From Bacteroidota bacterium (GTDB taxonomy: Bacteria > Bacteroidota > Ignavibacteria > Ignavibacteriales > Ignavibacteriaceae), in assembly GCA_021815405.1 (NCBI GenBank), contig JAKAGV010000014.1, positions 62,001 through 126,000 of the forward strand: a stretch of DNA of 64,000 nucleotides. Direction: 5' to 3'. Of this stretch, positions 38,334 to 60,002 are shown piece after piece. A program made the position numbers and the translations under genes. The stretch's first letter is position 1. Each line of letters begins with the position of its first letter. The notes beneath the pieces were generated by a model, which worked only from the letters and a program-made list of their open reading frames with translations, ran no database searches and was not told the origin of the DNA.

Positions 38334-39179
38334 TTAGCTTAGCAGTCCATTTAATAGTAGGAGAGCAAGTACAGATAAGCTTTGTGTAGATTTTAAACCG
38401 AGCTTAATCAATATGTGGGCTTTATGCTGCGAAATAGTATCCGCTGAAACATGAAACTCATCCGCTATTTTGTAATTCTTTTTCCCTTCCGCTATTTTCA
38501 ATAATATTTCCCTTTCTCTTTTTGAAAGTAAGTTCATTTTATCAACAGCTTCAGACAATTCACTTTTAAAGGACATTAAACCCTGCGAAAGTTTATCGTT
38601 GTTTGTTTCCCTCATTGCCCAATTAAAGCCCCTCAAAGTTATTGAATCAATTACAATACTATCATAGCAATAACAGCCGCTGTTGACTAATCTAATTATT
38701 CTAATAAGCTTCTCATTTACTTTTTCCCACGCAGGTACTGTATTAGTGGAATTCAAATGTGTTTGTATTATTCTTTGGCTCTGTTCTTCTTTTAACAGAA
38801 GCAGAGAATCCATTACAGGCGTTTCATGGTCGTGCAATATACTCATTACGTTGGATGAAATTAGTCCATGTAAATATTCCGGATTAACGCTGTCGGTATA
38901 AACTATTGTTTTAATTTCTTCAAGCTTGAAATCCCCACAATAGCTTTTAAGAAAATCAACCGTCTCTGCTTTATCAAGAGAAAGGTCTTCGATAAAAACT
39001 ACTTTATTATTTTTAAGAGAAGTGGAATCTATATAAAAATAGTTCAGAGCAGAATTTAAGCTGCGGAAACAATCGTGGAGATATATTTCATTGTTTTGTT
39101 TAAGCAGGCTTGTTAAGCCGGCAGAAAAAGATAGGCTATTTGAAATTGTATATAAATCAATTTTTTGTATCATCCCCAT
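38334..39179 (-). CDS. LuxR-type regulator with degenerate receiver and hydrophobic C-terminal tail
   Basis: A 281-residue protein. The C-terminal helix-turn-helix (about 215-270; LLSKREREILLKIAEGKKNYKIADEF, DTISQHKAHILIKLGL) is clearly of the LuxR/NarL type. The N-terminal 120 residues have a receiver-like length and hydrophobic pattern (VVFIEDLS, TIVYTDS) but lack the acidic pair, so phosphorylation is doubtful. After the helix-turn-helix the chain ends in SVLALLLLNGLLS, an unusually hydrophobic tail. An 11-G tract lies about 80 bp upstream of its start. No sensor kinase is adjacent. A second, distantly similar regulator lies at 40712. Confidence 0.8.
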   Translation of the reverse strand: MGMIQKIDLYTISNSLSFSAGLTSLLKQNNEIYLHDCFRSLNSALNYFYIDSTSLKNNKVVFIEDLSLDKAETVDFLKSYCGDFKLEEIKTIVYTDSVNPEYLHGLISSNVMSILHDHETPVMDSLLLLKEEQSQRIIQTHLNSTNTVPAWEKVNEKLIRIIRLVNSGCYCYDSIVIDSITLRGFNWAMRETNNDKLSQGLMSFKSELSEAVDKMNLLSKREREILLKIAEGKKNYKIADEFHVSADTISQHKAHILIKLGLKSTQSLSVLALLLLNGLLS

Positions 39180-39257: not shown

Positions 39258-39268
39258 GGGGGGGGGGG
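39258..39268. repeat. Homopolymer of 11 G (C11 on the minus strand)
   Basis: An uninterrupted 11-base G run in AT-rich surroundings, 79-89 bp upstream of the ATG of the minus-strand LuxR-type gene. Runs of this length slip during replication and often drive phase variation when placed in promoters or reading frames. Confidence 0.9.
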
Positions 39269-39378: not shown

Positions 39379-39996
39379 TTATTGTACCCTGCTAACCGCC
39401 TCGCTCCAGGCACCTGCGCCCGCCGTGTTCGTTGCCCTTACACGGTAAAAGTATCTTACACCTTTTACAACATCGTCGTCAACAAAGGTTGTCTTCTTTG
39501 TTACTTTGAATAATTTCATCTCCGGTATTACATCCGTCTTAGATGCATCCGTTGATGACCCTCTCTGCCATTCATACATTGATGCATCGGGGTCGACATT
39601 CGTTGAAGCTATTATTCCTTCGCCGTCAACATCATCCTTTAAAGTTACGAGGTGTGAAGTAGAAGGGATAGATTTGGGAGTAGATGATTTCTTAACATTT
39701 ATTCCATAGTCGTTGCTTAACTTTTCTGGGCTGCCTTTCTCCAATCCAATTGCAAGGTTAATAATACTGTCTGCTTCAAGCTCAGCTGCGGCGGCAACGC
39801 TCCTGGCTTCTGAAAGCTTAGTTATTGCTGCATTCTGCGCATCATCGGCTTCTTTGTCCACTTTGTTTAATCCGTCCACAGTTAACTGTATGGATTCCGG
39901 TGTTACAGACTGTCCGGTCCATTTACCGGGATTCTTTTCAATGCCGCTCTTTAATTTAAGAAGCTTGCCAACGGGTTCTAAAATGTACTTTAGCAT
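39379..39996 (-). CDS. Fibronectin type III domain protein
   Basis: A 205-residue protein without signal peptide. The first 85 residues are helical and Ala/Glu-rich (VDGLNKVDKEADDAQNAAIT, SVAAAAELEADSIINLA), suggesting a coiled coil. The C-terminal part (about 105-205) is an Fn3 fold (MYEWQRGSS, YFYRVRATNTAGAGAWSEAVS). Its ATG overlaps the stop of the upstream heptad-repeat gene (ATGCTAA), with AAGGAT just before, so the two are translationally coupled. Function unknown; a structural or carbohydrate/protein-binding role is plausible. No export signal is visible, which is odd for Fn3. Confidence 0.8.
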   Translation of the reverse strand: MLKYILEPVGKLLKLKSGIEKNPGKWTGQSVTPESIQLTVDGLNKVDKEADDAQNAAITKLSEARSVAAAAELEADSIINLAIGLEKGSPEKLSNDYGINVKKSSTPKSIPSTSHLVTLKDDVDGEGIIASTNVDPDASMYEWQRGSSTDASKTDVIPEMKLFKVTKKTTFVDDDVVKGVRYFYRVRATNTAGAGAWSEAVSRVQ

Positions 39997-40544
39997 TTGT
40001 TTATCCTTTTAGTTTGTTGATGAAAAATGATTATTCCCCGTCCGGGAAATAAATTAAATTGTTCGATTTCGCTGCAAATTGCCCTATTATGTTTTATTTT
40101 ACCCCTCTCTTCATCAGAAATACCCCTCTGCCGGTTGAAAATACCCCTCTTACCATCAAAAAAACCCCTCCTTCCGTCAGTAATACCCCTCCGGCTGTCG
40201 GACATACCCCTCTCATTACCTAAAATACCCCTCCACCGGATGAAAATACCCCTATTTCCGTTGGTTATACACCTCTTTCTCTTAGCGGTAGGGCTGTTTT
40301 CATCAAAAGGAAGCCTGTTGCCTGCTAAGATATCCCTCTTCCAATCGGTAACAGCCTGGGTATTGATTGACATTTCTCTCCTACTGCAGGTTACAAGCAT
40401 GCTATTAAATGAGCAATAGTTATCAATTGTAAAGCTTCTGTTTTGGGTAAGGTTTCGGGAGGACTTCTTTTTAGATAAGATACCGGAAGATTGAATACTT
40501 CCACTTATACTTTTATTCGGAACACTTTGTTCTGCTGAAAACAC
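39990..40544 (-). CDS. Putative heptapeptide-repeat (RGI-x4) protein
   Basis: A 184-residue frame from GTG 40544 (GGGGA 7-8 nt upstream) whose central part (about 65-165) is a run of 7-residue units RGI-FIRW, RGI-LGNE, RGM-SDSR, RGI-TDGR, RGF-FDGK, RGI-FNRQ, RGI-SDEE. The protein is strongly basic. Its stop overlaps the start of the Fn3 gene, which supports this strand as coding and suggests an operon. I know no family with this repeat. The opposite strand is also open for 130 codons, so coding status is not certain. Confidence 0.5.
   Translation of the reverse strand: MFSAEQSVPNKSISGSIQSSGILSKKKSSRNLTQNRSFTIDNYCSFNSMLVTCSRREMSINTQAVTDWKRDILAGNRLPFDENSPTAKRKRCITNGNRGIFIRWRGILGNERGMSDSRRGITDGRRGFFDGKRGIFNRQRGISDEERGKIKHNRAICSEIEQFNLFPGRGIIIFHQQTKRINKC
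40100..40274. repeat. Tandem 21-bp periodic repeat (TACCCCT core)
   Basis: TACCCCT or a one-mismatch form begins at 40100, 40121, 40142, 40163, 40184, 40205, 40226, 40247 and 40268, exactly 21 bp apart, with variable sequence between the cores. Weaker copies in phase occur at 40079 and 40331. The repeat unit equals seven codons of the minus-strand heptad gene and also two helical turns of DNA. Confidence 0.85.
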
Positions 40545-40711: not shown

Positions 40712-41440
40712 CTATTCTAACATACCGCAACTCCAAAGCCAGTCCATTAAGCAAAGTGAGTTGAGTAAAAGCGGAATAACCACTGGCATTAAGTTTTTGG
40801 CAGCCCATATTAATAAATCGCTAATATGCCCCATGTTTAGTTTTACTTTTGCAGAATATAAATACGACTCTACAGTCCTGATGCCTAATTTTAGAATTTG
40901 GGCAATCTGCCGGTTCGTATTGCCTTCTAATCTAAGTGAGATAACCTGTCTCTCTCTAAAGCCAAGTTCAGGAAGGTTGTGAGAAAGCTTTTCATCTTCC
41001 GAACGTACATTTTGAATAAACCTGCTGTAGTATTTATTATTTTTATAGACGTGCAGCATACATTCTTCTATAGCTTCAAAGCCGTCTCTTTTGCTTACAA
41101 TTCCGTCAACTCCTCTACTAAGAAAGTAATCAATCTGCTTTTTGTCTTGCAATGAAGTATAAAGAATCTTTTTTATTTCTTTATTATCTGAAGTCAAAAT
41201 ATTTCTTATTAATTCAGATTCAGATTCGTTAGCAGCGTCGACGTCAAAAATCAATAAGTCGCATTTCTCTTCTTTAATTTTAATCCTGCTGCCGTTTTTC
41301 TCCGGCTGTTTATCAATTATATTTAATGCGGTGATTAGCTTGGTTGTTAAGTGTATTCTTTTTGATTTTCTAAAATAGTTCTCGAAGGAAAAAAGTGCGG
41401 TCGGTATCTGTGATGTAAACAAGACATTTATGCTCTCCAT
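40712..41440 (-). CDS. NarL-like regulator with hydrophobic C-terminal tail
   Basis: A 242-residue protein: receiver-like domain (about 1-130) with a candidate phosphoacceptor Asp in LLIFDVDAAN and a conserved-type Lys in GIVSKRDG, then a LuxR helix-turn-helix (about 150-205; LGFRERQVISLRLEGNTNRQIA, RTVESYLYSAKVKL). Unusually, about 35 further residues follow the DNA-binding domain, and they are strongly hydrophobic (NLMPVVIPLLLNSLCLMDWLW). This could be a membrane anchor or dimer interface. No kinase is adjacent. The orphan state and the tail are shared with the regulator at 38334. Confidence 0.8.
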   Translation of the reverse strand: MESINVLFTSQIPTALFSFENYFRKSKRIHLTTKLITALNIIDKQPEKNGSRIKIKEEKCDLLIFDVDAANESESELIRNILTSDNKEIKKILYTSLQDKKQIDYFLSRGVDGIVSKRDGFEAIEECMLHVYKNNKYYSRFIQNVRSEDEKLSHNLPELGFRERQVISLRLEGNTNRQIAQILKLGIRTVESYLYSAKVKLNMGHISDLLIWAAKNLMPVVIPLLLNSLCLMDWLWSCGMLE

Positions 41441-59874: not shown

Positions 59875-60002
59875 TAACTGAAGTTACGCAAAATGAATAA
59901 AATGATCCATTTGTCATTCCGAACTTGTTTCGGAATCTTTATTTTTAAGCTGTTTTTAGATGCTGAAACAAGTTCAGCATGACAATTGTGTAACTTCAGT
60001 TA
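59875..60002. repeat. MITE-like element, copy B
   Basis: A 128-bp element with perfect 13-bp terminal inverted repeats (TAACTGAAGTTAC at 59875-59887, GTAACTTCAGTTA at 59990-60002), and inner hairpins ATTCCGAA/TTCGGAAT (59916-59936) and ATGCTGAA/TTCAGCAT (59960-59980). It is inverted relative to the copy at 31063. It lies between the end of the GH130 operon and its hairpin terminator, so it would be transcribed. No coding capacity. Confidence 0.82.

Follow-up and report, generated by a model that had tools for sequence, protein, structure and literature searches.

The window, by which we mean the whole 64-kb stretch of DNA analysed here, carries a tandem array with a 21-bp period directly upstream of a gene for a small protein with a predicted helical hairpin and an Fn3-like domain, and this pair is flanked by two regulator genes. 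The features of the locus are as follows:

38334..39179, minus strand: LuxR-type (GerE) regulator gene, the downstream neighbour, outside the conserved module
39379..39996, minus strand: gene for the 205-aa helical-hairpin plus Fn3 protein, the window array ending 103 bp upstream of its start codon
39990..40544, minus strand: 184-aa open frame with a GTG start, the RG-heptad protein of the initial annotation, judged spurious
40027..40419, plus strand: 130-aa open frame crossing the window array on the opposite strand, judged spurious
40100..40342, minus strand: non-coding 21-bp-period tandem array of ~11.6 units with sense core AGGGGTA[TTT], fainter units extending to ~40079-40373
40712..41440, minus strand: LuxR-type (GerE) regulator gene, the upstream neighbour, outside the conserved module

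The minus-strand LuxR-type gene at 38334-39179 is preceded, at about 80 bp from its start, by an 11-G run (39258-39268), which could render this gene phase-variable in expression.

The pattern TACCCCT-N14-TACCCCT, with up to two mismatches, matches the window nine times, all on the plus strand and in a single run (40079-40274), against a mean of 0.11 and a maximum of one match in 100 shuffles. The initial annotation had described nine TACCCCT cores 21 bp apart; the spacing stands (40100, 40121 and so on to 40268), but only seven of the cores are exact, that at 40163 reading AACCCCT and that at 40268 TACACCT. Fainter in-phase copies on both flanks, reported at the same time, are indeed visible. 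By autocorrelation (periods 15-31, at the threshold used) the stretch 40100-40342 is the sole array in the window, and a search of the window's genome for its exact core-pair pattern returned no other copy.

As described earlier, a 184-aa frame is open across the array on the minus strand, with a stop that overlaps the start of the Fn3 gene (ATGCTAA), and it had been read as a protein of RG-heptad repeats. The 130-aa frame on the plus strand is open too, so openness over the window array is not strand-specific. The 184-aa frame has no match in Pfam and its best NCBIfam match is at chance level (E 0.25). It does find matches in six of 97 genomes, its own included, the other five being of low identity; the four non-self matches that span the repeats (L007-L010) turn out to be 21-bp arrays too, and those of L007 and L009 contain stops. 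Arrays at the same position before related genes keep the DNA period without the frame: 30 of the 48 arrays described below have stops in every sense frame, the outcome that the initial annotation had named as refuting the protein, and the 18 with an open sense frame compare with 15.3 expected from permuted units. The window array is non-coding and holds no protein repeat, and we regard a real RG-heptad protein as next to impossible. The case also serves as a warning that open frames over 21-bp arrays can pass for repeat proteins without being genes.

The gene downstream of the array encodes a protein modelled by AlphaFold (mean pLDDT 91.3, pTM 0.52) with predicted helices at residues 3-21, 33-85 and 90-97 followed by strands, so that the predicted hairpin includes one 53-residue helix and the Fn3-like domain is C-terminal to it. 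Pfam fn3 (PF00041) matches this protein with E 0.0092 and a score of 16.6, below the gathering cut-off of 25, and the predicted structure aligns with structures of Fn3 type across about 100 columns (e.g. 3mpc_A, E 1.1e-4). Relatives of this Fn3 family are patchily distributed, in 11 of 97 relatives and, in a sample of the phylum, in 4 of 395 genomes, with at most nine matches per genome. Where a contig with a close relative is named, it comes from a MAG labelled Ignavibacteria or 'Bacteroidetes', Stygiobacter included, and we take the window to belong, most probably, to the Ignavibacteria group. Two weaker relatives (L060 and L061, labelled Chitinophagaceae and Chitinophaga) are both without an array at threshold. 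Comparison with PHROGs gave weak matches only, the best being a tail protein against the Fn3 half (7.2e-6), and the Fn3 alignment found no relative among viral contigs. Against NCBIfam, NF052641 included, the 205-aa protein has no match at E<=1, and it stays below the 80-bit cut-off of that model.

NF052641, the 'PQLLE family protein' model, came into view through a second family. An array met by chance (L160) precedes a gene for a protein of ~240 aa, predicted to be all-helical, whose family (hereafter F2) has members in 12 of 97 relatives and, across the class, in 35 of 391 genomes; some F2 proteins carry an extra C-terminal part that looks Fn3-like by sequence. Several F2 relatives match NF052641 with scores short of its 80-bit cut-off, the highest at 48.3 bits and that of L168 at 16.1. 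Over the phylum, it is found in 5 of 198 and 9 of 395 genomes, and the window's own genome has a gene above the cut-off (G000:C17, 131.5 bits). Profile comparison links PQLLE and F2 via an intermediate set (A4-A3, E 3.7e-13; A4-A2, E 4.1e-20), and judged by these profiles the helical ~240-aa F2 proteins and PQLLE are one superfamily. Between the Fn3 and PQLLE profiles the E-values are 0.00099, 0.0014 and 0.013, with probabilities of only 21.7, 17.7 and 3.4%; the alignment covers the C-terminal hairpin and ends in PEKLxxYGI on the one side and PQLLEKLGI on the other. With E around 0.001 and a low probability, the tie of the Fn3 family to the PQLLE superfamily is suggestive.

Known relationships beyond these are scarce. 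A Foldseek search with the F2 model gave no match at E<=0.001, and further structure comparison returned helical bundles, the best being LemA (2etd, Z 9.7, rmsd 3.1, 121 aligned), a match which for a predicted helical model would be within what chance gives. A sequence search of the PDB yielded no meaningful match, PADLOC run on four proteins gave none, and the PQLLE protein of L223 found no relative among plasmids and phages. The literature searched contained no paper with the word PQLLE. One PQLLE gene above the cut-off (L255, G086:C24) contains one in-frame TAA and is possibly decayed; its array is still present.

The pairing of gene and array was counted in a main set of 69 loci found by protein homology, 65 of which have at least 300 bp of upstream sequence; an array was called at a score of at least 20 within 900 bp upstream, score thresholds having been set after the first arrays had been seen. 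A 21-bp array lies upstream of the gene in 48 of the 65 (Fn3 19/26, F2 9/17, wider F2 set 20/22), against 4/65 downstream and 1/69 inside the gene, and twelve other periods (15-27) pooled reach 4/65. Two of the four downstream arrays are heptamer repeats by eye (L188, L207). The coupling to the Fn3 gene noted at the window is thus real and general, as the count of 19 among the 26 Fn3-family loci with at least 300 bp upstream attests. Seventeen of the 65 loci have no upstream array at threshold, for example L014, L018, L021 and L030 of the Fn3 family and L176 and L187-L190 of F2. Arrays have ~10-15 units, and the median distance from array to gene is ~100 bp.

These counts leave out repeats of known loci (such as L191-L195, L199 and L208) and partial or weakly matched genes (L013, L022, L032, L034, L037, L038, L062, L064, L177-L179 and L186), and they are not fully independent, since near-copy loci are counted (L206/L239; L212/L213). 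The period-21 scan has false positives in heptamer repeats (e.g. L042:3081-3321 and L188) and in low-complexity coding stretches (L132, L149). The repeat in L042, an AGGCAGT-like heptamer repeat, is of a kind that needs filtering in surveys.

A second set of 20 previously unexamined loci, from which L244 was dropped for too little upstream sequence, has an array in 14 of the 19 usable loci at a score of at least 18 within 700 bp, or in 13 at a score of at least 20; L231, L234, L235 and L248 are without one, and in L236 the array sits farther up. In a further sample, a 21-bp array precedes the gene at 8 of 11 PQLLE-type loci, some of them weakly scored (L221 18.4, L257 18.6; L252 scores 13.0). 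When the 17 loci from the PQLLE search are combined, 12 of 16 distinct usable ones have an array, and two of these come from a GC-rich genome that belongs to a different class; in this tally L225 was dropped (upstream sequence lacking), L227 is the same gene as L218 and counted once, and L229, with its array more than 1.1 kb upstream, was counted as without. A 21-bp array together with a gene of the PQLLE/Fn3 group is a recurrent two-part module.

What is shared among these arrays is the step and not the sequence. Each array of the Fn3 loci has its own unit, for example GGAAATT-rich in L028, AGAAAC in L023 and AAATGTT in L016, and array GC spans 0.11-0.60. Of 400 clearly matching neighbour units 387 keep a step of exactly 21 bp, a figure biased upward by the arrays having been found at lag 21, and the phasing noted in the window's array is supported across loci. 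Conservation inside the units is uneven (median z 4.1; >3 in 26/35). Distance between units costs little similarity: over eight units the value goes from 0.654 to 0.554. Higher-order repeats of 42 and 63 bp are present among the arrays. Both ends degenerate alike (0.50 against ~0.60 mid-array), with no polarity. Near the 3' end of the arrays a border motif like AATTCGCACTTTTT scores 65.6 against at most 37.0 in shuffles (width 10), and this motif may be the last degenerate unit of the array.

The unit motif tracks the relatedness of the proteins (Mantel r 0.57 for Fn3 and 0.61 for F2, p 0.0002), mainly through pairs above ~50-60% identity, and between proteins that are less than ~0.5 identical the similarity of the motifs is close to background. 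Over all pairs, same-strand motif similarity is 0.295 against 0.285 for reversed motifs, and the reversed-motif r is 0.50 for Fn3 and 0.01 for F2. The orthologues L168 and L169, with 211 of 236 protein residues identical and 63 of 81 fourfold sites conserved, give a closer view of turnover. The core ATCAACTGG, picked from the motif by eye, is identical at 93 of 106 positions against 93 of 140 for the rest of the unit (Fisher p 9e-5); identity over the full array is 186/246, lower than in the flanks (61/68 and 53/63), and one of the two arrays is longer by exactly one 21-bp unit.

Arrays also occur away from these genes. Across 862 kb sampled of the window's genome 21 bp is by far the commonest array period, with nine intergenic arrays, three of which came from stretches picked for Fn3 genes; an additional match, in L149, is coding. 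Five 21-bp arrays in these ~862 kb are not directly before a superfamily gene, two of them lying between convergent genes:

L070:7933-8139, orphan array, window's genome
L080:14047-14214, orphan array, window's genome
L151:19442-19629, orphan array, window's genome
L163:1699-1896, orphan array, window's genome
L165:16080-16491, orphan array, window's genome

In 400 kb of G013, from a related genus without these genes, we found no 21-bp array, and in 400 kb of G078, from another family, no clear intergenic one; the weak matches in L110 and L113 lie in an open frame and in mixed-period sequence. An array in G007 (L007:1530-1859) has the window's AAATACCCCTCT unit and orientation, with a similarity of 0.90, and the gene directly after it reads, by its sequence, as an ABC permease of the FtsX/MacB type; an array can thus stand without a superfamily gene. 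The idea that orphan arrays are trans targets of modules in the same genome was rejected, only one of 11 (L070, 0.56 with L024) exceeding the 95% background of 0.48 in comparison with the linked arrays collected from its own genome. The orphans L007 and L009 match linked arrays of other genomes (0.90 and 0.79). An intergenic array of 41-bp period in the window's genome (L074:9180-9509, G000) is apparently unrelated to the 21-bp class.

When the neighbouring genes were clustered, none proved common to most loci. The clusters present in at least four loci are both families themselves, one of 24 loci, one of 7 (5 of them distinct, all Fn3) and one of 4. In our reading, the 24-locus cluster consists of secreted-type proteins that share a C-terminus. 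A protein that we read as membrane-type lies beside five distinct Fn3 loci (L030, L036, L043, L054 and L055), two of which have arrays.

We propose that the array acts in cis together with the downstream gene of the PQLLE/Fn3 group, as a set of same-face sites for cooperative binding that controls expression or scaffolds the gene product, a reading to which we give an even chance. Twenty-one base pairs are two turns of B-DNA, and a two-turn step that outlasts full sequence change, across very different base compositions, fits recognition sites lined up along one side of the helix. Every unit would hold one recognition site, the two-turn step would set all sites on the same face, and a single protein or assembly would bind the whole array cooperatively and set the expression of the gene downstream. 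The array would most likely work as DNA upstream of the promoter, our first choice, with a transcribed leader as the alternative, and both can hold. A scan with a Bacteroidota promoter consensus, whose signal is weak and not decisive, found matches somewhat enriched between array and gene (5/40 against 1.9 +/- 1.2 in shuffles). Since no other gene adjoins most arrays, the first candidate binder is the encoded protein itself. The encoded proteins are acidic, with median pI 5.2-5.9, which speaks against their binding nucleic acid directly. For the proposal as a whole speak the pairing, the exact register, the uneven conservation within units and the tracking of protein relatedness by the motif; against it weigh the 17 loci lacking an array at threshold, the loss of motif similarity among distant proteins and its near equality on either strand, the faster change of the L168/L169 array than of its flanks, the arrays without such a gene, and the purine excess described next.

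The strongest competitor is transcription of the array, into a leader or a separate small RNA, with repeats that the encoded protein or a different RNA-binding protein would bind, much as happens with the repeat RNAs of type III toxin-antitoxin loci or with sponge RNAs. The purine fraction of the sense strand is 0.553 in the arrays (above 0.5 in 41 of 48) and 0.556 from array to start codon, against 0.490 before the array, and such an excess, common to the array and the gene-proximal region, would point to transcription of the array. The sense strand also has an excess of GAA, GAAA and AAA (GC skew 0.112, AT skew 0.105), the arrays are higher in GC than either flank, and 12 of the 48 end 0-57 bp ahead of the start codon used, which leaves scant room for a promoter. 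T-runs, considered as putative parts of an intrinsic terminator, occur near the array end in 10 of 40, a raw count. Against an RNA, however, structure is mostly no greater than in permuted units (mean z -0.81; below -2 in 6 of 35), Rfam gives no match at gathering score for five sources, promoter matches before the array are not enriched (4/44 against 3.2 +/- 1.7 in shuffles), the acidity of the proteins counts here as well, and in RNA nothing other than a protein footprint would obviously call for a step of 21 bases. On balance we consider an RNA role unlikely, while treating it as a serious contender.

We think it improbable that the arrays are satellite-like repeats whose spread or growth between genes is neutral and whose period reflects the mechanism that generates them. 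Such an origin would sit well with the non-polar decay at both ends, the higher-order repeats, the arrays found away from the gene family, the whole-unit indel and the faster change of the array than of its flanks. It would leave unexplained the strong one-sided association with the genes (upstream far more often than downstream), the uneven conservation within units, the core kept between orthologous arrays, and the lack of such arrays in the sampled sequence of G013 and, as clear intergenic ones, of G078.

Intrinsic curvature, with bends summed at the two-turn step, is very improbable. The window array beats 97% of 60 permutations of its units and L028, L029 and L182 at least 92%, and an aligned pan-array profile has weak shared A/G-rich positions ~10 apart (3.69 bits against 2.74 +/- 0.08); yet under our crude wedge model 29 arrays average 0.086 against 0.094 when permuted, and only 13 of the 29 are more curved than half of their permutations. 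At lags of 10 and 11 identity is 0.268, less than the 0.288 that composition predicts, and a half-turn (10-11 bp) repeat is not seen by lag identity, despite the weak pan-array pattern above its null. An operator array for the flanking LuxR-type regulators can hardly be the answer: the window array has such a gene on either side, and L041 and L044 each have one upstream, but they are near only 5 of 29 Fn3 loci (flanks of at least 1.5 kb, some cut by contig ends) and do not recur as neighbours in the wider set.

The gene-array module can be set beside several known systems. Plasmid iterons and arrays of the parC/tubC type are direct repeats in helical register that are bound cooperatively, some of them upstream of the gene for the binder, features that the arrangement proposed here would share. 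Our loci appear to differ in that no replication or partition gene was noticed among the clustered neighbours and in that several arrays are present per genome, each with its own unit. Type III toxin-antitoxin systems (ToxIN, CptIN, TenpIN) have repeats of ~34-48 nt in 2-6 copies, and their toxin is an endoribonuclease. The likeness, which counts in favour of the RNA alternative, is that a non-coding repeat in tandem copies immediately precedes the gene for a small protein, whereas here the period is 21 bp, the units number ~10-15, the proteins are predicted to be helical and there is mostly no folded repeat RNA; the indirect tests for such a system gave no Rfam match, no PADLOC match for the four proteins and mostly no folded repeat. 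A CRISPR array was rejected on the short 21-bp unit, the graded conservation and the ends that degenerate alike. The PQLLE family (NF052641) exists as a protein family model only, while 6 of 9 loci above its cut-off have an upstream 21-bp array, and we know of no description of arrays for it.

The nearest description of repeats that the literature searched offers is that of the TAACTGA heptamers, direct intergenic repeats before start codons, which occur also in some Bacteroidetes (MacGregor 2015, PMC4679880). They have a period of 7 and one fixed heptamer, whereas the 21-bp arrays vary by locus; a period-7 repeat was rejected for our arrays (0 of 48 flagged; mean lag-7 identity 0.27). The 21-bp arrays themselves were found described nowhere in that literature. 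As far as these searches reach, the gene-array module is of a kind that was not described before.

A superfamily that extends across one class and reaches another class of the phylum thus carries a non-coding partner at most of the loci examined, and the arrays give the PQLLE family its first functional handle. A bolder version of the proposed cis-acting array is that each superfamily protein reads its own array, whether this takes the form of a same-face filament on DNA or of repeat RNA, so that protein and array would co-evolve in pairs while the period stays fixed, and orthogonal pairs would coexist in one genome as a new class of bipartite element. This we put forward tentatively, as possible and rather more doubtful than control in cis as such. 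What it is that reads a fixed period and not a fixed sequence becomes a directly testable question, and if the encoded protein is the reader, these loci would supply many candidate orthogonal protein-array pairs.

A separate observation concerns a short transposon-like element in the window (59875-60002) with inverted ends TAACTGAAGTTACGCAA. The 15-base end sequence of this element has 70 copies in the genome, and two copies of the element lie between array and gene (in L168 and L024, both of G000), the element being missing in the orthologue L169.
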